Source: Streptomyces sp. NA04227 (lineage in GTDB: Bacteria; Actinomycetota; Actinomycetes; Streptomycetales; Streptomycetaceae). From it: DNA of 64,000 nucleotides. The position numbers and the translations under genes were made by a program. The notes under the pieces are model-generated. The model saw nothing but the letters and a program-made list of their open reading frames with translations. It was not told the origin of the DNA and searched no databases. The stretch is from assembly GCF_013364195.1 (NCBI RefSeq), contig NZ_CP054918.1:868001-932000 (forward strand), read 5' to 3'. Below, one piece after another: positions 5,327 to 16,798 of this stretch. Position 1 is the stretch's first letter. Every line of letters begins with the position of its first letter.

Positions 5327-6553
<1,227 letters not shown>

Positions 6554-7423: not shown

Positions 7424-7777
7424 ATGGCACTGCGACCTGTTCAGGTGAACATCAAGGCTCTTGATCACTCGACGGTCGGCCGGTTCTGGGCGGAGGCGCT
7501 CGGCTGGAGCGCCTACAGCCCCGGCGTGACCACGTACGTCGGACCCCCTGGGGGCTTGGTCTGGCCGGACCCGGTCGCCGTCGGCATCAATGTCGTCCCC
7601 GTCCCGGAGGGCAAGACTGCGGCGAAGAACCGTATGCACCTCGATCTCGCCACCACCTCCGCGGCCCATCAGGCGGAGTTGGTCGCGCGCCTGCGCGCAC
7701 TCGGTGCGACGCCCGTCGACGTAGGTCAGGGCGCCGTGCCGTGGACGGTCCTCGCCGACCCGAACACTCCGGTCTAG
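7424..7777 (+). CDS. 5' part of a two-domain VOC-family protein, interrupted by the integrated element
   Basis: 117 aa. One VOC (glyoxalase/bleomycin-resistance) domain runs from VNIKALDHSTVGRFWAEALGW to GATPVDVGQGAVPWTVLADP. The last four residues, NTPV, and the stop come from the element end. Normal VOC domains continue DPEGNEFCVL, and exactly that continuation is found at 16391 after the element. The original gene was therefore 7424-7761 joined to 16396-16798, giving a protein with two VOC domains. The missing last strand normally carries a metal-ligand glutamate region, so this half is probably inactive. Confidence 0.85.
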   Translation: MALRPVQVNIKALDHSTVGRFWAEALGWSAYSPGVTTYVGPPGGLVWPDPVAVGINVVPVPEGKTAAKNRMHLDLATTSAAHQAELVARLRALGATPVDVGQGAVPWTVLADPNTPV

Positions 7778-7785
7778 CAGTTCTG
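7741..7785. other. attL, left attachment site of the serine-integrase element
   Basis: The shared core GACCC is at 7757-7761. Host VOC sequence is to the left. To the right, ten bases after the central GA, lies the arm CCGGTCTAGCAG (7769-7780), which is nearly the reverse complement of the arm at the other end (CTGCTAGTCCGG, 16369-16380). This is what the P' half of an attP recognised by a large serine integrase looks like. Confidence 0.85.
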
Positions 7786-7863
7786 ATCGTAGTGGGTGGT
7801 CAACGGCAGGAGAACGCCCCCGCCTCACGCCGTTGGAGGACGTTCGACGGGGGCGCGAGCCGA

Positions 7864-7899
7864 CTCGCTGAGCTGTGTTGCTCGCCGTCGCTCAGCGAG
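7864..7899 (-). terminator. Hairpin terminator of the left small-gene operon
   Basis: CTCGCTGAGC (7864-7873) and GCTCAGCGAG (7890-7899) form a perfect 10-bp stem just beyond the stop of the DUF7848-like gene. A second G/C hairpin (CGCCCCCG near 7814 with CGGGGGCG near 7846) lies closer to attL and may insulate the element from the host gene. Confidence 0.65.
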
Positions 7900-7906
7900 C
7901 CGGGGA

Positions 7907-8137
7907 CTACTCGGCGCGGATTACGCGCGCGTGGTCGGTGTATTCGCGACGGAACAGGTCGTGACCGGGGTTGCGCCCGGTGTGTCTCAGGGCCCAGTCC
8001 TGGGCGTCGTCGGGGTTGCCCTCTGGGCCGGAGGAAAGTCCGCATTCGTCGGCTGCACAGAACAGTTCGGCTGTGATGCCGTTCTCCGGGACGCGGTTGA
8101 TGGTGTGCGCTACGTAGCGCAGGACGGTGCGGCTCAT
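7907..8137 (-). CDS. DUF7848-like small protein
   Basis: 76 aa, start MSRTVLRYVAHTI; it has spaced cysteines (AELFCAADECGL) and a histidine-containing RHTGRNPGHDLFRREYTDHARVIRAE ending. This pattern matches a widespread Streptomyces small-protein family that I recall as DUF7848, of unknown function. Its ATG overlaps the stop of the preceding gene by 4 bp (ATGA). It is the last gene of a three-gene operon inside the element. Confidence 0.7.
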   Translation of the reverse strand: MSRTVLRYVAHTINRVPENGITAELFCAADECGLSSGPEGNPDDAQDWALRHTGRNPGHDLFRREYTDHARVIRAE

Positions 8138-8421
8138 CCGAAGCTCTCAGCGGGCAGCGTGGGTTGCTCGGTGGCGTCGGTCTGGGGCTCGTTAGCGGTG
8201 TCGGGCAGGAGTGCGCCCAGTACCTTGCTCGCCGAGCCGACTCTGAGCGTCCCCAGGTCGACGTACGGGCACCCGGTACGGCTCACGCGTCCTGCGATCC
8301 TGCCTGCCTCATAGTCCGGCACGCCCGCTTTCTCGAACGCCTCACGCAGCTGGCTCGCCAGCTCGTCGGCCGCCCGCCGCGCTGCCTTGTACTGACCCAT
8401 CGGGATGCCGTACTCAGCCAC
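8134..8421 (-). CDS. Hypothetical protein, middle gene of the left operon
   Basis: 95 aa from the GTG at 8421 (VAEYGIPMGQYKAARRAADEL), which overlaps the end of the upstream gene; the open frame goes further up but would overlap that gene in full. The N-terminal part looks helical (QYKAARRAADELASQLREAFEKAG), then comes a GTLRVGSASKVLGALL segment. No known domain recognised. Overlaps on both sides (8414-8421 and 8134-8137) show it is co-translated with its neighbours. Confidence 0.65.
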   Translation of the reverse strand: MAEYGIPMGQYKAARRAADELASQLREAFEKAGVPDYEAGRIAGRVSRTGCPYVDLGTLRVGSASKVLGALLPDTANEPQTDATEQPTLPAESFG

Positions 8422-8620
8422 GACGACGCCCCTCGTGAGGGTGCGCACGCAACTCGACGTTGAGGTCAGACACCTTGGACATGTCGCCCCGTTCCCGTGC
8501 AGCGGCACGTTCGCTGACCAGTGCGCGGCACACGTGGCAACCGGATACAGGTCCGGGGTCCACGAGGGGTGGCATCGGCAAGTCGATGGGTGGGCCTGGA
8601 TAGGTCATTGGGTTGGTCAT
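8414..8620 (-). CDS. Small CxxC protein of a Streptomyces family
   Basis: 68 aa from ATG at 8620 (MTNPMTYPGPPID). A CHVC motif sits around residues 28-31 and the conserved-looking tail SKVSDLNVELRAHPHEGRRR follows. I have seen this type of short Cys-containing protein next to DUF5919/XRE regulators in Streptomyces, but its function is unknown to me. It is the first gene of the minus-strand trio and diverges from the regulator at 8763, sharing a 142-bp promoter region. Confidence 0.65.
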   Translation of the reverse strand: MTNPMTYPGPPIDLPMPPLVDPGPVSGCHVCRALVSERAAARERGDMSKVSDLNVELRAHPHEGRRRG

Positions 8621-8669
8621 GAGTCGCCCCTTGTGCGTCCGTGGTCGGTTGATCGTTCCGCTGGTCACC

Positions 8670-8730
8670 GGGACGTAGGAACCTCGTACGTTTCCCATTT
8701 TGGGACGTCCCGAGTCGGGTAGAACGTCCC
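8670..8730. promoter_or_regulatory. GGGACGT repeats in the divergent promoter region
   Basis: GGGACGT occurs at 8670-8676, as the palindrome GGGACGTCCC at 8702-8711, and inverted as ACGTCCC at 8724-8730. They lie between the divergent small-gene operon (start 8620) and the DUF5919 regulator (start 8763), the usual place for an autoregulatory operator. Which protein binds is inference. Confidence 0.5.
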
Positions 8731-8762
8731 TGTCAGGGCGCGGCAGTTGAAGGGATGCGGCC

Positions 8763-9503
8763 ATGCAGAACGAGCGCTTACGCTCCGCCATGTCATCGGG
8801 AGGATGGACGCATGCCCGACTGGCCGAGGTCACTGGGGTCGATGCCAAGAGCGTGGAACGCTGGGTCAACCTGGGACGCACACCGAGGCGGGTAACGGCA
8901 CATAAGGCCGCCGAGGCTCTGCGCGAGGACGTGCACGCGCTGTGGCCGTCGCTACGCCAACCGCGTCCCACGCGGGCTGTGAGCCCCGAACTCATCGCCG
9001 TGTACGACCATCGCGCCGACCTGCCTGTGTCCGTGTACGTGGACCTGTTCGCCGGGGCTCGGGAGCAAATCGACGTACTCGTTTACGCGGGGGTCTTCCT
9101 CCACGAGGCGTATCCAGGGCTCAACGACCTTTTGCGGGAGCGTGCCGGGGAAGGCTGTACTGTCCGGATCGCCGTGGGAGACGCCGAGAGCGAGAACGTC
9201 AAACAAAGGGGCAAGGAAGAGAAGTTCGGGCACGGCATCGAGTCCCGATGTCGTCTCGCCCTCATGCACTTTCGCCCCTTGCTCGGGGTGCCCGGTGTCG
9301 AACTGCGAACTCACGCGACGACCCTCTACAACAGCCTCTACCGCGCTGATGATCAAGTGCTGGTGAACGCACACGTGTGGGGTGTGAACGCCTACGGGGC
9401 ACCGGTCTGGCATCTACGTCGCAACGGCAAGGGCGGCATGTTCGACACCTACGCGGACAGCTTCACTGCCGTGTGGGAGACCGCCAGAACCGTGGAAGGC
9501 TGA
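8763..9503 (+). CDS. Helix-turn-helix regulator with C-terminal DUF5919 (phospholipase D-like) domain
   Basis: 246 aa. The N-terminal HTH (about 1-60) contains RLAEVTGVDAKSVERWVNLGRTP. The C-terminal domain (about 75-240) reads LFAGAREQIDVLVYAGVFLHE, VRIAVGDAESENVKQRG, LYRADDQVLVNAHVWG, matching the DUF5919 regulators of Streptomyces whose domain resembles phospholipase D folds. The sixth codon is TTA (8778-8780), rare in Streptomyces and read by the bldA tRNA, so translation may depend on growth stage. The stop is 4 bp before the Nudix GTG. Confidence 0.85.
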   Translation: MQNERLRSAMSSGGWTHARLAEVTGVDAKSVERWVNLGRTPRRVTAHKAAEALREDVHALWPSLRQPRPTRAVSPELIAVYDHRADLPVSVYVDLFAGAREQIDVLVYAGVFLHEAYPGLNDLLRERAGEGCTVRIAVGDAESENVKQRGKEEKFGHGIESRCRLALMHFRPLLGVPGVELRTHATTLYNSLYRADDQVLVNAHVWGVNAYGAPVWHLRRNGKGGMFDTYADSFTAVWETARTVEG

Positions 9504-9507
9504 GCCG

Positions 9508-9978
9508 GTGGCACGAACCGAGTACTACGACGACCCCACCGCCCCAGAGCCCAACAGCCTGGTAGTAGCGGCTTCTGCTGTGGTGACGGATGACGCGGGC
9601 CGCATCCTGCTCCAGCGACGCCGGGATAACGACCTGTGGGCATTGCCTGGCGGCGGAATGGACATGGGCGACTCGTTGCCCGGTACGGCAGTCCGGGAGG
9701 TGAGGGAGGAGACGGGCCTGGACGTGGAAGTCACGGGGCTGGTCGGTACATACACCGACCCTCGGCACATCATCGCGTACAGCGACGGAGAAGTACGCCG
9801 ACAGTTCAACGTGTGCTTCACGGCGCGCATCGTGGGTGGGACATTGGCCATATCTGACGAGAGCACAGAACTTCGCTTTGTGCACCAGGGAGAGCTGGAC
9901 AAGCTCCCCATGCACCACACTCAACGGCTCAGGCTTCGTCACTATCTCGAAAACCGAGCAGCCCCCTACCTCGGGTAG
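9508..9978 (+). CDS. Nudix hydrolase
   Basis: 156 aa, GTG start 4 bp after the upstream stop, so probably translationally coupled. The Nudix box is clear: GGGMDMGDSLPG followed by TAVREVREETGLDV (G-x5-E-x7-REVREETG). A stand-alone Nudix gene after a DUF5919 regulator is a recurring Streptomyces arrangement; the nucleotide-like substrate is unknown. The gene ends directly before a strong terminator. Confidence 0.9.
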   Translation: MARTEYYDDPTAPEPNSLVVAASAVVTDDAGRILLQRRRDNDLWALPGGGMDMGDSLPGTAVREVREETGLDVEVTGLVGTYTDPRHIIAYSDGEVRRQFNVCFTARIVGGTLAISDESTELRFVHQGELDKLPMHHTQRLRLRHYLENRAAPYLG

Positions 9979-9991
9979 AGGGAGGGGGCTG
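9959..9991. terminator. Bidirectional terminator after the Nudix gene
   Basis: CAGCCCCCT (9959-9967) and AGGGGGCTG (9983-9991) form the stem. It overlaps the Nudix stop region and ends 4 bp before the stop of the minus-strand ORF at 9995, so it can serve both convergent genes. Confidence 0.75.
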
Positions 9992-9994
9992 CGA

Positions 9995-10216
9995 TCAGGT
10001 GCCATGATGGACCAGCTTGATGTCCCTTCGGGGTATGCCACCCCGGGCCTTCATAAACTCGAGGCCGTCGCCCTTGTTGCGCCGTATACGGTGGGTAGCC
10101 GATCCGGTGTGGGCCAGGAATCCCAGTTCGGCTCGGGACATCCGAGTGTCGGCCAGGTAGGCATCGCTTACGCGGCGGGGCAGGCGCACACTGGACTCAT
10201 GCATATACGCGAACAC
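9995..10216 (-). CDS. Small basic protein, unknown
   Basis: Up to 73 aa; start uncertain (10216, 10204 or MSRAELGF at 10141). Internal sequence is FLAHTGSATHRIRRNKG then GLEFMKARGGIPRRDIKLVHHG. No family recognised. Support comes from codon use (about three quarters of third positions are G or C, better than the opposite strand here) and from the convergent terminator placed between it and the Nudix gene. The longer starts overlap the HNH gene start on the other strand, so its 5' end may have been cut by arrival of that gene. Confidence 0.45.
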   Translation of the reverse strand: MFAYMHESSVRLPRRVSDAYLADTRMSRAELGFLAHTGSATHRIRRNKGDGLEFMKARGGIPRRDIKLVHHGT

Positions 10217-11143
10217 TGGTTTGATGAAGGAGCGCCGCTATTTCGGCAGGTCCTTGAAGAATCCGGTGGCGTACTGCCGCCCGGTGATTTCTACATGTGT
10301 CCGCTCTGCACGCTCGCCTTCTCACGCGAAGCGGTCGCCGAAACGACACCGCAGGAGGAACGGGCGCTGTCTGAGGAACACGTACCTCCAGGGAAAGCAG
10401 GAGGACAGGGCCTACTGCTCACATGTACCTCATGCAACAACACCCACGGGAGTAGATTTGACTCCCACGAAGTAATACGCAGAGCGATGCGGAATGCGGC
10501 CAAGGGTGAAAATCCGGGACGGGACCTTCGGGCTAGCCTTGAAGTGGATGGAATCGAGATGCCCTGCAAGGTTTGTTTCATTGACGGGAAGATGATAGCT
10601 CGGGGCCAGGGAACACATCCCGACAACGCGGAGGCTCACGCCGAAGCCCTAAAGAGGGCACAGGAAGCGAAAGACTTTTCGTCCGTCAAGTTCAGGTTCC
10701 GCCAACCACATGATCCCGGGCGCGCAGATGTGTCTTTGATCCGCTCTGCCTACCTCGCCGCATTCACCGCACTGGGGTGGTCGTACATACTCAAGAACAC
10801 TCTGACGACGCTATCGCCCATCCGGGATAAACTCGAGAAAGGGTCCGCCGCCTCCCATGCCCTCACTCTTCGATCACTCGTCGGACGCAGGCCCAGCCTC
10901 CCTGATGGCGGTCGGAAGATAACACTCGTTGAGCAGCCGCCGGATCTAGAATCCGTCCTCGTGACAATTGATCAGAATCTTGTATTTCTACCTGATCCTT
11001 GGGGTATCCATTCCTGCGTAGACCTATCACAAGCGATAGGGCGTCATCGGGACAGTCAGGGAGAGAATTCGGTGACATTGAATGGCAAGGATGTCCCCTG
11101 GCCGAGCCCTTATGAAAATCGCTTCAGACTAGACCGAATCTGA
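10199..11143 (+). CDS. HNH-nuclease-like protein
   Basis: 314 aa. An N-terminal zinc/HNH-like module shows CPLC (about residues 34-37), then EEHVPPGKAGG and TCTSCNNTHGSRFD, the layout of HNH proteins of the 'EHVPP' type where CxxC pairs support the metal site. The rest has no recognised domain. Base composition is visibly lower in GC than the neighbours (for example 10920-11140), suggesting separate acquisition. No strong ribosome site is seen before the ATG at 10199. It could be a defence or anti-phage cargo gene or a homing-type nuclease; that is inference. Confidence 0.65.
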   Translation: MHIREHWFDEGAPLFRQVLEESGGVLPPGDFYMCPLCTLAFSREAVAETTPQEERALSEEHVPPGKAGGQGLLLTCTSCNNTHGSRFDSHEVIRRAMRNAAKGENPGRDLRASLEVDGIEMPCKVCFIDGKMIARGQGTHPDNAEAHAEALKRAQEAKDFSSVKFRFRQPHDPGRADVSLIRSAYLAAFTALGWSYILKNTLTTLSPIRDKLEKGSAASHALTLRSLVGRRPSLPDGGRKITLVEQPPDLESVLVTIDQNLVFLPDPWGIHSCVDLSQAIGRHRDSQGENSVTLNGKDVPWPSPYENRFRLDRI

Positions 11144-11327
11144 CGATCCCGAATGAAGGGCATAGGGGCTGCCCCCGAACGCCATACTTGTCTTGAATGA
11201 GGGCACCCACGGAACAGAGCCCGCACCTTGCCGTCCGTGTCGGTCCCGCCCACGCGAGGAGCCGCACAGATCAGCATCCCTGACGACCTTGGAACCCGTA
11301 CAGATCTTGAGCTGCTATACGCCTGCG

Positions 11328-11343
11328 GTACGGCGTGACGCCG
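11328..11343. repeat. GTACGGCGTNACGCCG repeat, copy 1
   Basis: A 16-bp sequence with an inner dyad CGGCGT-G-ACGCCG. A second copy differing at the central base (T) is at 13041-13056, where it overlaps the stop of the 221-aa gene. This copy lies in the 228-bp gap between the convergent HNH and capsid genes. Confidence 0.5.
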
Positions 11344-11371
11344 GGAGGGGGCATACCCCCAGGTCACAGGG

Positions 11372-12211
11372 CTACGCGGTGAGTGTCACTCTAGTGATCG
11401 CTGCGGGGTGCGGGTGGCCGAAGCCAATCCGGCAGGTGCCGCGTACGGCTACCTGGTCGCTGGTAAAGAAAGGCTCCGCGCTCACGTCCACCTTGACGTC
11501 ACGGCGGAGCACGACGAACACGCGGTCCTTGGGCAGGCCCCATACGGTGCCCGGGGTCACGGCTGAGGACACGTGCAGCGGGACGCCTGCGATGACGCGG
11601 CGGGTCGGCGCCGTGGGATCCGAGCCGAGCAACGGCCGGTTGGAGCCTGTCTGTTCCTTGAGCGTGGCCAAGGCCAGGGCGTCCGTGGGGTGGGCGGTGA
11701 AGCTGGTCAGCGTGGCACCCACGGTCTCGGCCTGGGCGATGGCCTCCAGAAACGGGTCCAGGTTGGCCCACTTCTTGCCCGCCGTGACCGTGGTGACGCC
11801 CTGTACTGCCTCCAGGCCGCGCGGGGCGGGGTCGGGCAGGCGGCCGAAAAACGCGGCGTCGACCTGGCGGGCGATGGAGCGGGCCAGTCCGTCGCCGACG
11901 ATCTGCTGTGCCTGGGGGTTGGAGTCCTCGGCCAGCTCCGAGGAGACGACGGTCAGTCCGGCCACTTTGGCGGGGGTGACGATCTCCTCGCCAAGAGTGG
12001 CGTCCTCCACGGGGATCTCGTCGCCTTCACGGGTCCAGGCCGCTCCGGTGTCTTCCTGCACGATCGGCAGATGGGTGCGGGTCGCCTCGGTGGTGATCTG
12101 GGTGGCGACCTGGAAGGCCACCGATTCACCCTGCACAGGCTGGATCAGCAGGGCGGCGTACTGGTCGGGGGTGATGCCCTCCGCGCCCGGGGCTGTGGTG
12201 AACAAGCTCAA
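11372..12211 (-). CDS. Phage major capsid protein, HK97 family
   Basis: 279 aa from a TTG start (TTGAGCTTG) with an AAAGG site upstream. The N-terminal arm, then LPIVQEDTGAAWTREGDEIP, KVAGLTVVSSELAEDS (E-loop to P-domain region), the spine-helix segment LARSIARQVDAAFFG and the C-terminal VRGTCRIGFGHPHPAAI follow HK97-type capsid proteins of actinophages. No protease or long delta domain precedes it. The isolated capsid gene in an element without portal or terminase is unusual; an encapsulin-like use was considered, but the sequence pattern is that of phage capsids. Confidence 0.85.
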   Translation of the reverse strand: MSLFTTAPGAEGITPDQYAALLIQPVQGESVAFQVATQITTEATRTHLPIVQEDTGAAWTREGDEIPVEDATLGEEIVTPAKVAGLTVVSSELAEDSNPQAQQIVGDGLARSIARQVDAAFFGRLPDPAPRGLEAVQGVTTVTAGKKWANLDPFLEAIAQAETVGATLTSFTAHPTDALALATLKEQTGSNRPLLGSDPTAPTRRVIAGVPLHVSSAVTPGTVWGLPKDRVFVVLRRDVKVDVSAEPFFTSDQVAVRGTCRIGFGHPHPAAITRVTLTA

Positions 12212-12226
12212 GTCCGTTGCCTTTCT

Positions 12227-12724
12227 CTAGAGTTCGCCGGAGCTGCGGCCGTCGCTGAAGTAGGTCACGCCGCCGCGTCCGGTACGGCGCTGCTCACGGG
12301 CGCGCTGGAATGCTCCGGCCCAGGTGACGGATCGGGGCTTCCCGTTCGGGCTCAGGCCGCCACGGCCGAGTGGGATGTGTCCGGGTGCGGGGCCGGTGGT
12401 GCGCTCGTGGATGGCGTTGTTGAGGAGGTGGGCGCGTTCCTCCAGTTCCGCTGTGGGGAGGTCGCCGAAGCTGCGCAGGACGTCGGGGGTCATGTAGTGG
12501 TAGCGGCGGGCAAGGTCCTGGATCAGGTCCTCCCGCTCCTGGTCGGCTTTGTCCTGTTCCAGCTCCGCGATGCGCTTACGTAGTTCGGCAACGAGGTGTC
12601 CGGGGTCTGCCTGCGGGTCTGTACTGGCCTCTGGCGGGGTGTTGCTGTCATGTGGGGCAGGGGGCGCTTCGGGGATGTCCGGGGCGGTGTCGTGTCCCGG
12701 TGCGGGTTCAGTCGGTGAAGACAA
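12227..12724 (-). CDS. Coiled-coil protein upstream of the capsid gene (scaffold-like, hypothetical)
   Basis: About 165 aa from a TTG at 12724; a GTG at 12775 would give 182 aa but overlaps the upstream gene by 68 bp. The N-terminal 45 residues are Pro-rich and acidic, then a helical coiled coil LVAELRKRIAELEQDKADQ, then ARRYHYMTPDVLRSFGDLPTAEL and a basic tail. Its place 15 bp before the capsid gene and its coiled coil resemble phage scaffolding proteins. That role is inference; no direct family match recognised. Confidence 0.55.
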   Translation of the reverse strand: MSSPTEPAPGHDTAPDIPEAPPAPHDSNTPPEASTDPQADPGHLVAELRKRIAELEQDKADQEREDLIQDLARRYHYMTPDVLRSFGDLPTAELEERAHLLNNAIHERTTGPAPGHIPLGRGGLSPNGKPRSVTWAGAFQRAREQRRTGRGGVTYFSDGRSSGEL

Positions 12725-12968
12725 CGGCGTCCGCCAGGCTGCTGATCGGGGACAGGGCGTGGGCTGCCTCGTCACCGCTGAGGAGGTTGTCGCGCTGGCC
12801 GCAGATGACAGTGGTCTTCAGGCCCAGGGCGGCCTCGTGGCGCTTGTCGTGGTAATAGCGCAGCGTTGTGGTGTCGCCGATCTCGGCTGCCGACCACACC
12901 AGGTCGGACAGCGCGGCGATGTAGCAGCGGGTCAGGTTCAGGTGGGCACGGGTCTTGTGCGCGTCCAT
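12708..12968 (-). CDS. Hypothetical protein in the capsid operon
   Basis: 86 aa (MDAHKTRAHLNLTRCYIAALSDLVWSAAEIG start region; ends SSLADAVVFTD). GGGAG precedes the ATG. The first part looks alpha-helical, with no known motif. It is transcribed with the coiled-coil and capsid genes and overlaps the former slightly. Confidence 0.6.
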   Translation of the reverse strand: MDAHKTRAHLNLTRCYIAALSDLVWSAAEIGDTTTLRYYHDKRHEAALGLKTTVICGQRDNLLSGDEAAHALSPISSLADAVVFTD

Positions 12969-13040
12969 CAGGCTCCCTCGGGTCGGGGGTGGAGCGGTCC
13001 GCCAGCGGGCCCGGCGGTAACTCCCGCTCCACCCCTGTCA

Positions 13041-13056
13041 GTACGGCGTTACGCCG
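13041..13056. repeat. GTACGGCGTNACGCCG repeat, copy 2
   Basis: Same 16-bp motif as 11328-11343 with T as the central base; the dyad CGGCGT-T-ACGCCG covers the TAA stop of the gene ending at 13049. It may act as a small terminator or binding site. Confidence 0.5.
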
Positions 13057-13714
13057 CCTCGTCCCCGCTCGTCCGGCGTCGGTAGCGGCGGGCCCGTTCT
13101 GCGGCCAGTCGGCGTCTGCGCTCGGTCTTGCAGCCGTCGCACACGGTCGGCCACTTGCGTTTCTGCGAGGCGGGACGCCGGACGGTGAACCCCTGCCCGC
13201 ACTCGATGCAGTCCGCCGTGTACTCCTTGATCCCTCCCGCGAGGGTCACCGTGCCGCCAGCCGTCTCATACATGCGGGGGTTGGCGTCGTTGCGGATCTG
13301 TTCCTCCCGCTGCCGCAGCAAGGCGGCGTGCAGGCGGGGATCCATGCGGGTCACGGTCACTTCGGGGTAGGGCTGGGCGAAGTCCAGGCGCCGCCCCGCG
13401 CGCCGGATCTCCTCGCCGCTCTTGGCCTGGGCGGGGTTGGGGGCGGTGCCCCTGAGCGGGTGGAAGGCGCCGCCGTGCAGGTCGTCACCGCGTGCGGACA
13501 CGGCCCGGTGGTCGGCGCGTATCGTCTCGGCGCCGTCGTCGTCCACGCCGGTCCACGCGACATGCGCCATGGCGTCTTCCTGCGACACGGGGTCGTAGCG
13601 ATGTTCCTCCTTGCCGTCCGCGATCAGCGGGACGCCGTATTCCTGCTCTGCCTGGCGGGCCAGGGTCTCGTACAGCTTGGGTGGCACGATCGCCACGGGT
13701 TGTCTCCTGGGCAT
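13049..13714 (-). CDS. Hypothetical protein with C-terminal zinc ribbon
   Basis: 221 aa. The N-terminal part (VPPKLYETLARQAEQEYGVPLI) is of unknown type. The C-terminal part has CIECGQGFTVRRP and, after about 18 residues, CDGCKTERRRRLAAERARR, a four-cysteine zinc ribbon followed by a very basic helix. Such a tail suggests nucleic-acid binding. Located in the same minus-strand cluster as the capsid gene; a 334-bp stretch with two hairpins separates it from the next gene upstream. Confidence 0.6.
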   Translation of the reverse strand: MPRRQPVAIVPPKLYETLARQAEQEYGVPLIADGKEEHRYDPVSQEDAMAHVAWTGVDDDGAETIRADHRAVSARGDDLHGGAFHPLRGTAPNPAQAKSGEEIRRAGRRLDFAQPYPEVTVTRMDPRLHAALLRQREEQIRNDANPRMYETAGGTVTLAGGIKEYTADCIECGQGFTVRRPASQKRKWPTVCDGCKTERRRRLAAERARRYRRRTSGDEAA

Positions 13715-13850
13715 GCGAAAGGCCCGCCAGGGTGCAGCGGGCCTTGGGGTTCGATGTGGGGTTGCGGGAAGCGGCGGAGTGGACGCCAGGGACGCTTTCG
13801 GCGCCGAATACCGAGACCTCTTCCCACACGCGTATGGGGGAAGGTCTGAG

Positions 13851-13875
13851 AACTGGACACTTCAGGTGTCCAGTT
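13851..13875 (-). terminator. Hairpin between the two zinc-ribbon genes
   Basis: AACTGGACAC (13851-13860) and GTGTCCAGTT (13866-13875) form a perfect 10-bp stem with a 5-nt loop. A second imperfect hairpin (GACCTCTTCCC / GGGGGAAGGTC, about 13815-13846) sits just downstream in the minus-strand direction. Together they probably end the 148-aa gene transcript or regulate the gene below. Confidence 0.55.
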
Positions 13876-13948
13876 GTCCTTGGCGTTCCGCCCCGTTGCT
13901 GGGGTTACGGGCTGGGGGACTGGCCGAAGACGTCGGCCCGCTTGGCGC

Positions 13949-14395
13949 TCACGCCGATGACGCGGCGGGTTTCCTGCGCTGCCGATAGGCGCGTTGCTGG
14001 CAGGCACGTGAGCAGTAGCAGCGCGGCCTTCCGGTCGACGCCCCGCCCACCGGCTTGCCGCACACGCCGCAGGGTGCCGTGACGGAATCCTCCTTGACGT
14101 AGCCCACGGAGTCGTATGCCTCTTGGCACTCCGGCTCGGCTTCCTCGTAGGAGCAGTTCACGCGCCGTGGGTCACGCGTGAAGAAGACGTCACCGCAGCG
14201 AGCGCACACGCGGCGCAACTCCGGCCGGAACTCCTTCAGTTCCCGGTAGTCCGCCTTCCGGCACGCTTCCGAGCAGTAGCGGTACTGGCTGCGACGAGGG
14301 GCCCCGCATCGGTCGCACTCGGGAACGGATACGCCTCGTTCCCGAAGGGCATGCATGCCGTCTTTCTGATACGCGGTCATGGGTTTGATCGGCAC
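13949..14395 (-). CDS. Multi-zinc-ribbon protein
   Basis: 148 aa from GTG at 14395, with an AGGAG site 6 bp before it. Three cysteine clusters are visible: CDRCGAPRRSQYRYCSEAC (27-45), CARCGDVFFTRDPRRVNC (64-81) with a later C, and CGVCGKPV..CYCSRACQQRAY near the end. The repeated CxxC..YCSxxC pattern resembles FmdB/CGNR-like zinc modules found in phage proteins. Probably DNA- or RNA-binding; function unknown. Confidence 0.6.
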   Translation of the reverse strand: MPIKPMTAYQKDGMHALRERGVSVPECDRCGAPRRSQYRYCSEACRKADYRELKEFRPELRRVCARCGDVFFTRDPRRVNCSYEEAEPECQEAYDSVGYVKEDSVTAPCGVCGKPVGGASTGRPRCYCSRACQQRAYRQRRKPAASSA

Positions 14396-14429
14396 TGGAA
14401 CGCTCCTCGTGTCGGGCGTGACGATTCGG

Positions 14430-14508
14430 CGCTCCGTGTCCTTGAAGTGAGGTTCTCTCCATAGAGATCAAGAAAGAAAAAGGGGGTAGAGATTACGGAC
14501 ACGGAGCG
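14430..14508. repeat. 12-bp inverted repeat flanking an A-rich segment
   Basis: CGCTCCGTGTCC (14430-14441) and GGACACGGAGCG (14497-14508) are exact reverse complements. The 55 bp between them include a purine run AAGAAAGAAAAAGGGGG and a small TCTC/GAGA dyad, the most AT-rich spot of the element. It lies between the integrase terminator and the zinc-ribbon gene. It could be an operator, a replication or packaging-related site; nothing decides this. Confidence 0.55.
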
Positions 14509-14631
14509 GCGTTTCGTCACCACGGTCGGGTGGCCTGCCGACGCTCTGCGGGGAGCGTGATGACCTCTTCCACACAGGTTGTCTGGGACCTGTTACGAAA
14601 GGCGTGACACGCGCAGGCACGGAAAGGCGAA

Positions 14632-14660
14632 GGGCCCGCACCTCCACAGAGGACGGGCCC
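14632..14660 (-). terminator. Terminator of the serine recombinase gene
   Basis: GGGCCCG (14632-14638) and CGGGCCC (14654-14660), 19 bp beyond the recombinase stop. Confidence 0.65.
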
Positions 14661-14678
14661 AACAAGCGCCGAGCGGAT

Positions 14679-16337
14679 TTATGCGGCGTCGGCGTAACTG
14701 GCCGCCAACTCCTGGGCAGCCTCGTCGTGGAACGGCTCGGTGAGCGTGAAGTCCACCCGGGACTCGTCCAGCCTCCGCCAGCCGCCCCGCGTGCCTCGGC
14801 GGACCGTGAGGTGTGCTCCCGCCCGCAGGAGCATCGCCCGCCTGCCCGCTGTGTCCTTGGCCTGCCACACGTCGTTGTAGGTACGCCCGGTGTTGATCCG
14901 TTCACGGCGCGGCTCCCGCTTCGGCGTCGCTTCCAGCTCGGCAAGCCTCGCGTCCAGCGCGTCCGCCCGTCGCTGCCACGCCTCCCGGGCCGCCTGGGAC
15001 TTCTGTCGCCCCTCCTGCCTCTGGTGATCCTCGAACTCCACGAGCGTGGCCGCGATCTCCGGAGCGGGGTCGTACCCCGGTGTCTCGATCACGGTCGTCA
15101 CTTCCAGACCTCCGAGGGACGCCAGGAACTCGCGTTCCACGCACATGTCCGCCCAGTCCCCGCGCACATACGCCGGAGCGTTGCAGGCATCCCCTCGCAC
15201 GTGTGCGTTGCACTTGTACATGGGCTGTTGATTCGCCTTGCTGGCCTGCCTGTTCAGGTACATCCGGCCCTTGCACTCGGCGCAGTGGATCACGCCGAGA
15301 AGCAGAGAGTCCGTGTCCTGGCGTTCCCGCTTGTTGATGACCCGCGAGTCCAGTAGTGCACCCACGGCGTCGAACTCTTCACGCGTGAGGAGTGGATCCG
15401 CTGTGACCATCACGGGGCGCCCCTCGGCGTCCCGCACGGGCTTGTCCTGGTGCATCTTCCAACCCATCAGCACCGGGTTACGTAGGAGGCGAGAGATCAT
15501 GTTCGAGGTCCACTTGAACCGCTCCCGCTTCACGGCCTTCTGCCCCTTGGCCCCGCCCGTTTTCCCGCCCGTGTTCCGCCCCTTGCGCAGGGACCAGTAG
15601 TCGCGCGGGGACGGGATGCCCTCGGCGTTCAGCTCCGCCGCGATGGCGGTCACGGACTTGCCAGCGACGTCCCGGGCGGGATCACCCATCACGTCACGGA
15701 TGATCCGCTCCAGCACAGCCACCGGGGCCGGACCCGTCACTTCGTGCGGCTCGGTGTCCGGGACCAAGGTCCAGCCCCCGCCGTCCAGGGGCACAGGTAT
15801 GTACCCGTAGGGCGGGCGTGCGCCGCGCCACCGAAGCGGCATCGCACGCATGGCCGCCTGCGCGCCAAGGACACGTTCCTTGATGCTGGTGGCCTCCACC
15901 TGCGCGGCGAACGCGAGCATGAGCATCATCAGCTCAGCCGTGGGGTCCATCGGGTTGCGGAAGTCGAACACCAGCCGCCCGCCGCCGACACCTTCAGCGA
16001 ACACCAGCATCTTGCGATGCTCACGCGCCCACTTCGCCAACTCGTGCATGTCCGCCATCGACCGGATGGCACGGTCAAAGCGCCAGAACACCAGCGCGTC
16101 GTACTCGCCGGGACGGCGCAGCCACTCACCCAGCTCGGGTCGCTCGAACGGGGTCGTCTTCGACGCCGACACACCCAGGTCCACGGCCTCCCGCTCGCCC
16201 AGGTCGATACCCAGCGCCGAAGCCGCCGACGCGTTCGCCTCCCGCTGCCGCTCCGGGCTGGTCGTCTCGTCCGTCAACACCGACAGACGCAGCACCGAAA
16301 CGCCCCTGAGCTGCATATTCTCCGTCATGACCGTCAC
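14679..16337 (-). CDS. Large serine recombinase (phage-type integrase)
   Basis: 552 aa from GTG at 16337, chosen because GAGGGGG lies just upstream; ATG at 16328 is an alternative. The resolvase-type catalytic domain has VLRLSVLTDETTSPERQ with the catalytic serine at residue 19, and FWRFDRAIRS further on. A recombinase domain follows (YGYIPVP, AIAAELNAEGIPSPRDYWS, SRLLRNPVLMGW) and a zinc beta-ribbon, CAECKGRMY..YKCNAHVRGDAC. A C-terminal coiled-coil region holds QAAREAWQRRADALDARLAELE. It catalyses attP x attB integration; its gene starts 32 bp from the attR arm, as usual for such elements. Confidence 0.95.
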   Translation of the reverse strand: MTVMTENMQLRGVSVLRLSVLTDETTSPERQREANASAASALGIDLGEREAVDLGVSASKTTPFERPELGEWLRRPGEYDALVFWRFDRAIRSMADMHELAKWAREHRKMLVFAEGVGGGRLVFDFRNPMDPTAELMMLMLAFAAQVEATSIKERVLGAQAAMRAMPLRWRGARPPYGYIPVPLDGGGWTLVPDTEPHEVTGPAPVAVLERIIRDVMGDPARDVAGKSVTAIAAELNAEGIPSPRDYWSLRKGRNTGGKTGGAKGQKAVKRERFKWTSNMISRLLRNPVLMGWKMHQDKPVRDAEGRPVMVTADPLLTREEFDAVGALLDSRVINKRERQDTDSLLLGVIHCAECKGRMYLNRQASKANQQPMYKCNAHVRGDACNAPAYVRGDWADMCVEREFLASLGGLEVTTVIETPGYDPAPEIAATLVEFEDHQRQEGRQKSQAAREAWQRRADALDARLAELEATPKREPRRERINTGRTYNDVWQAKDTAGRRAMLLRAGAHLTVRRGTRGGWRRLDESRVDFTLTEPFHDEAAQELAASYADAA

Positions 16338-16364
16338 ACGGTCCCCCTCGTAGCAGTCGCCTAC

Positions 16365-16405
16365 AGACCTGCTAGTCCGGCGTGACGGGAGACCCCGAGG
16401 GCAAC
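16365..16405. other. attR, right attachment site
   Basis: The arm CTGCTAGTCCGG (16369-16380), ten bases (16381-16390), then the central GA and shared GACCC (16391-16395), followed by host VOC sequence CGAGGGC. With attL it rebuilds attB as CCTCG-N7-CGAGG around the same core, itself a small dyad. Confidence 0.85.
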
Positions 16406-16798
16406 GAGTTCTGCGTGCTGGAGCCTCGGGAGATCTACCGGGACACCGGGCCGATCGCCGCGATGGTGGTCGACTGCGCGGACCCGCGGGCCATGGCCCG
16501 GTTCTGGGGCGAGGCGACGGACTGGGCCCCGCACGAGGTGACCGACGACCAGGCGGTGTTGCGCTCGGCCAAGCGCATCGGTCCGTATCTCGAGTTCCTC
16601 CGCACCCCCGACGTGGCGACGGTCCCGGACCGGGTCCACCTCGACCTGCTGCCGGACCCCGGGGACGACAAGGCGGCGGAGGTGGCCCGATTGCGGACTC
16701 TCGGCGCCACCGACCTCGACCTCGGCCAGGGGGATGTCCCGTGGACTTGCCTGACGGATCCGGAGGGGCACGAGTTCTGTGTGCTCGCCCTGCCCTGA
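16382..16798 (+). CDS. 3' part of the interrupted two-domain VOC protein
   Basis: 138 aa if translated from the GTG at 16382, which belongs to the element. Residues from DPEGNEFCVL onward are host-derived: the end of the first VOC domain, then a full second VOC domain (IAAMVVDCADPRAMARFWGEAT to WTCLTDPEGHEFCVLALP). No ribosome site is evident before the GTG, so expression is doubtful. The domain itself is complete and could be functional if expressed. Confidence 0.8.
   Translation: MTGDPEGNEFCVLEPREIYRDTGPIAAMVVDCADPRAMARFWGEATDWAPHEVTDDQAVLRSAKRIGPYLEFLRTPDVATVPDRVHLDLLPDPGDDKAAEVARLRTLGATDLDLGQGDVPWTCLTDPEGHEFCVLALP

Follow-up and report, generated by a model that had tools for sequence, protein, structure and literature searches.

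Serine integrases have mostly been described as entering one gene. In phiRv1 of Mycobacterium tuberculosis, an element of about 10 kb with a serine integrase and a capsid gene, the bacterial attachment site (attB) is a repeated element with several copies per genome, and not a codon motif of paralogues. The present work concerns an 8.6-kb element that likewise combines these two genes and that lies in a 64,000-nucleotide stretch of Streptomyces sp. NA04227 (contig NZ_CP054918.1, forward strand, positions 868,001 to 932,000; hereafter, the window), whose genome is one contig of 7,894,562 bases. The element interrupts a gene of the vicinal oxygen chelate (VOC) superfamily. We hold with good confidence that it is phage-satellite-like and that its integrase lineage would recognise the DNA coding for a VOC motif rather than one gene, with the paralogues serving as alternative sites.

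The integration systems phiC31, phiBT1, TG1, R4, SV1, phiJoe, phiOZJ, phiWTR and Samy share with this element a large serine integrase and a short core, and also a phage attachment site (attP) forming an inverted repeat around a dinucleotide and the insertion into a coding gene (PMC12924846, PMC5311408; here and below, statements on cited papers refer to parts of them). Both phiJoe and Samy use radical-SAM genes, phiJoe one gene (PMC5311408, PMC12924846), and the attB of Samy is predicted to be single copy in 85.2% of strains (PMC12924846); the site described here, in contrast, is a motif that recurs in several paralogues of a genome. For large serine recombinases (LSRs) in general, single-target and multi-target enzymes have been reported, the latter being defined as a 90% identity cluster found in more than three diverse target gene clusters (PMC10083194). 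These multi-targeting LSRs resemble the present case in that related enzymes occupy more than one target gene cluster; their motifs, however, are AT-rich or otherwise relaxed and many of them carry DUF4368, whereas here a single protein family supplies the motif, a block of GC-rich codons, and the domains listed for the integrase do not include DUF4368. The words "glyoxalase" and "VOC" have no occurrence in the main texts of PMC10083194 and PMC12924846, and no VOC gene is among the integration systems named in the consulted part of PMC12924846, in line with the remark of an earlier, sequence-only reading of this DNA that such a gene is not a classic Streptomyces target.

The interrupted gene, the element halves of the two attachment sites at its borders (attL and attR) and the integrase gene are placed as follows:

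7424–7756, forward strand: 5' part of the interrupted two-domain VOC gene (Glyoxalase_6), which with the element in place is extended by an element-coded tail, DPNTPV and a stop codon (7775–7777)
7757–7790, forward strand: element half of attL; core GACCC at 7757–7761 with the crossover GA at 7757–7758, plus the right arm of attP
14679–16328, reverse strand: large serine integrase, 549 aa (PF00239, 3.9e-17; PF07508, 1.7e-14; PF13408, 2.3e-08)
16361–16395, forward strand: element half of attR; left arm of attP, plus the core GACCC at 16391–16395 with the crossover GA at 16391–16392
16391–16798, forward strand: remaining 3' portion of the VOC gene, starting with DPEGNEFC and covering the last part of domain 1 together with the whole of domain 2

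The element is thus a unit of 8,634 bp with GACCC at 7757–7761 and again at 16391–16395, and the integrase gene points inward from its right end; the Resolvase, Recombinase and zinc-ribbon domains of the enzyme all score above their curated cut-offs. The open reading frame (ORF) starting at 7424 reads ..VLADPNTPV up to a stop at 7777, and DPEGNEFCVL resumes on the right flank. Joining 7424–7756 to 16391–16798 gives 741 nt in a single frame, i.e., 246 aa and a stop, and Glyoxalase_6 matches both halves (2.9e-18 and 3.8e-28), the two domains sharing one frame once the element is removed. The sequence-only reading had proposed an 8.6-kb serine-integrase element inside a two-domain VOC gene, GACCC at both ends and an in-frame gene upon removal, all of which we recovered; its size of about 248 codons was slightly too large.

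The same reading had called for an intact gene in related genomes. Among 29 fetched loci (L-numbers are labels for stretches and contigs from other genomes and viral collections), the joined gene aligned over the junction in 14 (L011–L019, L021–L024 and L026; blastn, at least 728 of 741 nt, 76–88% identity, small gaps); the other 15 had mostly been retrieved via the upstream gene resembling dihydrofolate reductase (DHFR). Because the gene is unbroken across the junction in these 14 loci, a chance junction can be ruled out. The intact gene of two such loci, L012 and L018, adjoins a divergent argC, whose product is 85% identical to that of the argC in the window (5327–6406). Here a DHFR-like gene separates argC from the VOC gene, and synteny is thus partial; within the flanks of about 1.5 kb that the neighbour comparison covers at each fetched locus, neither the DHFR-like gene nor the downstream methyltransferase-like gene was found beside the VOC gene. 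No tRNA gene was found within the 64-kb window.

The attP rebuilt from the two arms is an inverted repeat centred on GA with 20 of 28 positions paired, compared with seven in attL and nine each in attR and attB; the best of 2,000 shuffles reached 16 pairs. A longer inverted repeat in attP around a central dinucleotide shared with attB is what is expected of this class of integrases. Five IMG/VR contigs bear related integrases (L154–L158). Three of these (L156, L157 and L158) contain uninterrupted attP palindromes around GA with 20, 21 and 19 of 28 pairs, which independently supports the rebuilt geometry; L155 has a palindrome around TT (13/28), and L154 starts too close to the contig end for its attP to be assessed. 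In L063, L070, L098-type loci and L102, attB and attP diverge directly after GA or one base further on, and since attL and attR of L063, L070 and L102 have only GA in common, the crossover can be fixed at this dinucleotide.

Integrase relatives (E <= 1e-30) were found in 83 of the 392 genomes of the genus, the majority of them distant; 33 loci with related integrases have names (31 Streptomyces, one Kitasatospora and one Peterkaempfera). In motif-free prints of the sequence outside the integrase starts of the relatives, GGAGACCC(C/G)GAGGGCAACGAGTT recurred. Fourteen insertions were resolved (the window, L063, L064, L066–L071, L073, L098 and L100–L102), with units of 8,226–11,355 bp, and every one of them has its crossover at a GA that forms the first two bases of the Asp codon in a VOC motif, D(P/I)EGNEF, with the reading frame continuing across the junction. 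The target genes differ: identities among the joined VOC proteins are mostly 32–60% (minimum 32%), with a few pairs at 59–68% (L063/L102, L064/L073, L068/L070 and L068/L101), and only the window and L071 targets are the same two-domain gene (86% identical). Unoccupied relatives of other targets exist as well (e.g., L115, 85% identical to the two-domain target of L098). Moreover, the motif occurs at one to nine sites in each of the 37 genomes searched (37/37; reversed control pattern, 0), six of them, counting the occupied one, in the genome of the window. All 20 unoccupied sites that were read, five from that same genome, are VOC genes in the same frame.

The most direct comparison is offered by Streptomyces sp. 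TRM68416 (L063) and S. tanashiensis (L064), whose integrases are 99.8% identical over 532 aa and whose units, equal in length (8,702 bp), lie in two different VOC genes. A third VOC gene is occupied in L093, by an integrase 95.7% identical to these. The three genomes contain four (L063), eight (L064) and five (L093) exact motif sites, one occupied in each; those of L067 and L071 have four and three, again with one occupied (site L141 of L071 is unreadable). Measured against the definition of more than three target clusters, the L063, L064 and L093 integrases, more than 95% identical, are found in three VOC genes and the window integrase in one. As near-identical and related integrases use the DPEGNEF block in different VOC genes, attB would be better described as a gene-family motif than as one gene. 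The earlier claim that this gene is the attB of the element thus holds as far as the position of attB within it is concerned and is too narrow otherwise, related integrases using the same block in many VOC genes.

In 13 of the 14 resolved insertions the tail added at attL runs into a stop after no more than 10 codons; that of L070 remains open for at least 20 codons. The strand lost from the 5' part carries the motif Glu, which stands at a usual metal-ligand position of the VOC superfamily, and for this reason the split gene has likely lost its function. The left arm of attP supplies an in-frame GTG ahead of the 3' part (16382–16390; GTG ACG GGA GAC), and several relatives have a GTG in the same position; the orphaned second domain could in principle be translated from it.

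The integrase tree (49 rows, midpoint root; 27 rows unlabelled, one 14-row subgroup being without resolved targets) placed 44 of the 49 integrases in one supported set (100/99). Sixteen rows are labelled VOC, L045 (junction DPAGHPFC) having been left unlabelled, and VOC users stand on both sides of the first splits of the set; given this, the simplest reading would be that VOC use is old and that the other targets came later. With unlabelled rows set aside, the five ComEC-like users fall together on one side of a branch (99/98), the sole PhoD-like user pairs with a VOC user, and the branch placing the window integrase has moderate support (92/87).

As for these other targets, the N-terminal part of the L103 target (core AA) matches ComEC_Rec2 at 1.6e-11, below the cut-off, and that of the L072 target (core GA) matches PhoD at 1.9e-05, just below it; both insertions lie inside codons of conserved-looking motifs. 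In L074 and L103, which are one and the same place, the ComEC-like pair came out on top in a motif-free search for attachment-site pairs. The ComEC-like frame is clean only in L103, the joins for L107, L108 and L109 being out of frame at the junction; for L034/L108, L035/L107, L036 and L040/L109, a like junction suggests a ComEC-like target. The target of L044, judged by eye only, is perhaps GNAT-like, and neither the AAGGGG-type junctions (L076, L077, L078, L080, L083 and L090) nor L084 yielded a convincing second end. The right half-sites of the PhoD-like target (12/17, P 0.0003) and of one ComEC-like target (11/17, P 0.001) resemble the VOC consensus above shuffles, and a weaker likeness is seen for a second ComEC-like site (8/17, P 0.045) and for L044 (9/17, P 0.07). 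The ComEC-like site fits the reported enrichment of competence genes among LSR targets (PMC10083194).

The cargo, on which the sequence-only reading had made no claim, resembles that of a capsid-encoding phage satellite:

7907–8137, reverse strand: DUF7848 protein, 76 aa (PF25232, 3.4e-19; phrog_10944)
8134–8508, reverse strand: 124-aa protein, no family found; no match in profile scans
8763–9503, forward strand: helix-turn-helix (HTH) protein, 246 aa, with a repressor-like N-terminus (phrog_2328, 4.4e-07; DUF5919-like PF19319, 0.00039, and PF13560, 0.002, both below cut-off)
9508–9978, forward strand: Nudix hydrolase, 156 aa (PF00293, 1.4e-19; phrog_1198, 5e-18)
10007–11143, forward strand: 378-aa protein with an HNH_5-like stretch (PF14279, 0.0003, below cut-off)
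11372–12211, reverse strand: HK97-type major capsid protein, 279 aa (PF05065, 4.8e-28; phrog_10, 7.4e-37; TIGR01554, 1.7e-28)
12227–12775, reverse strand: 182-aa protein beside the capsid gene, no family found
12708–12968, reverse strand: small ORF of 86 aa, no family found
13049–13714, reverse strand: 221-aa protein with a zinc-ribbon-like C-terminus (TIGR02605, 0.0017, below cut-off)
13949–14395, reverse strand: Cys-rich protein, 148 aa, weakly HNH-endonuclease-like (phrog_1271, 4.8e-08)

The capsid protein matches only the C-terminal 270 positions (115–384) of the TIGR01554 profile, and for the 182-aa protein next to it a scaffold role is a guess from position. The DUF7848 gene would neighbour the integrase gene in the circular form, a place that makes its product a possible excision factor. 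A protein of this type recurs opposite the integrase end in L063/L064 (18154–18378), L070 (16658–16879), L072 (18340–18567) and L157 (9050–9268). The HTH and Nudix pair (8763–9978) is 78–86% identical to pairs in L072 (16792–18004) and L079 (9788–11002), whose integrases are only 58% identical to that of the window; the much greater closeness of the pair suggests that this part of the cargo has been exchanged as a module. A match to the PADLOC candidate PDC-S07 (1.9e-10) was also obtained with the Nudix protein.

Integration machinery and a major capsid gene, by which candidate actinobacterial phage-inducible chromosomal islands (PICIs) are recognised (PMC10654092, in which phiRv1 is mentioned as PICI-like), are both present in the element. 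The terminase subunits, portal and head-tail connectors that capsid-forming PICIs have of their own (PMC10690885) were not found in it at E 0.01, and neither terminase nor portal nor tail genes were recognised at this threshold with Pfam, PHROGs and TIGR profiles, the sole portal-labelled match being that of the Nudix part of the Nudix protein with phrog_15528. Integrase and capsid within about 10 kb are also found in candidate Mycobacterium PICIs (PMC10654092) and in 10.9-kb Mycolicibacterium phages (WillG, Anya and others). Twelve such phages of about 10.9–11.1 kb are the best phage relatives of the capsid protein (33–35% identical); WillG is annotated with a terminase, a head-tail adaptor and a stopper, none of which is recognised in the window element. 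The Streptomyces satellites Mulch and Flayer likewise have their own capsid gene, but they carry large and small terminase subunits and a portal, and the one integrase reported for them is a tyrosine integrase (PMC10690885). For the integrase, the best phage relatives are those of the Streptomyces phages Euratis, Lilbooboo, Vash and Samora (54–55% identical), which at about 41 kb differ from the 8.6-kb element. Among plasmids, no near match to the whole element was retrieved, only four distant integrase matches.

From the window and 16 related units, 222 ORFs were picked; leaving aside short ORFs and integrases, 110 of them were scanned, of which one comes from the window. Among the matches listed, Pfam gave Phage_capsid five times, Terminase_4 (small subunit) twice, SPP1_portal once, HTH_31 ten times and HNH four times, and PHROGs gave nine matches to a small terminase family; these lists hold the best 25 families by frequency, so that a large terminase could still occur in single units. 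The viral contigs L156 and L158 each encode a capsid protein as well as a small terminase subunit (4/14 and 6/13 picked ORFs scanned). L156 (IMGVR_UViG_3300046529_000813; 9,014 bp) also contains the integrase, an intact attP and endonuclease VII-like genes, and, given its 127-bp terminal repeat, is probably circular with a length of about 8.9 kb. These viral contigs appear to be extrachromosomal forms of this class of element. In its mode of action the window element would resemble a serine-integrase phage satellite, and we infer an active integrase, excision and mobilisation by a helper phage.

Each integrase might instead have a single VOC gene as its attB, the family having drifted between paralogues. 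The window and L071 integrases, 61% identical, do share one two-domain gene (targets 86% identical), and only one motif site was occupied in each of five genomes checked. The L063 and L064 integrases, however, are about one residue in 532 apart, and their target proteins are only 50% identical over 82 aa, the L093 enzyme sits in a third gene, and orthologue-like genes stand empty: the L093 genome contains one resembling the L064 target (74% over 82 aa), and the L064 genome one resembling the L067 target (76% over 130 aa). This makes specificity for one gene distinctly improbable. A broad and weakly specific, transposase-like integration that met VOC genes by chance would accommodate the sister integrases found in ComEC-like (core AA) and PhoD-like (core GA) targets and at unresolved junctions; yet at least 17 of the 44 integrases of the supported set (the 16 labelled rows and L045) lie at the VOC motif codon, and the average genome among the 37 offers only a few motif sites in 5–13 Mb, so that chance encounters are scarcely credible. 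Finally, the element could be a decayed prophage remnant without independent life and the split gene a fossil. The lack of a recognised terminase, portal or tail gene in the window element would agree with this, but its integrase and attachment-site arms are intact, the 14 related units are similar in size (8.2–11.4 kb), and free contigs of 9.0 and 9.5 kb carry integrase, intact attP, capsid and small terminase, which speaks for a mobile class, not necessarily for the mobility of this copy. We regard such a remnant as unlikely.

Some observations weigh against recognition of a VOC motif by this integrase lineage. The motif served as the search pattern in placing nine of the 14 insertions, the other five being placed with attR strings read off the motif-free prints (among them L068, which the pattern had not caught and which was resolved afterwards); yet the motif-free print itself displays the junctions. 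The motif-free pair search over 19 loci gave mostly noise. Of the seven loci in it that are of VOC type, L098, L100 and L104 had the VOC pair at the top of the ranking and L068 had it in second place; in L099, L101 and L102 it was not picked up. For L099, with a motif-bearing attR, no credible attL was found; the L093 and L037-type junctions are without a resolved attL, the other end of L093 lying beyond the contig, and the target frame of L064 seems broken or misread upstream. Outside the motif, no base distinguished occupied from empty sites significantly (C at -1 in 12/14 versus 14/20, P 0.42). The window integrase, moreover, is found in one insertion only, with one match in its genome, and its ability to use several sites would be extrapolated from relatives at about 54–68% identity.

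With motif recognition as the preferred reading, attP of the satellite-like element would have recombined with an attB in the D-P-E-G-N-E-F-C codons of a Glyoxalase_6/VOC domain, with the crossover at the GA opening the Asp codon. VOC paralogues with the motif would be alternative integration sites, and here the domain-1 motif of a two-domain gene would have been taken. The machine would be of a known kind; for this class of target, an attB made up of codons that a family of paralogues shares, no description was found in the searches made of an open-licence library. On balance, we lean slightly towards a broader reading, in which a lineage of satellite integrases adopted codons of protein-family motifs as attachment sites, the VOC block DPEGNEFC being the older one, with later shifts to the codons of other conserved-looking motifs, ComEC-like (..SCGADNTYGHP..) and PhoD-like (..FDDHDVIDDWN..), which resemble the VOC block at the DNA level.

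If this is true, the conservation of a protein across hosts and paralogues would give an element several equivalent sites per host genome, in the way that tRNA genes serve tyrosine integrases, and a codon block shared by paralogues, present in all 37 genomes searched, would explain the broad host range of small satellites. Retargeting between conserved motifs would become testable, and vectors with several predictable landing sites could be conceived. An interrupted VOC motif, in turn, would be a marker for capsid-carrying satellites in actinobacteria.

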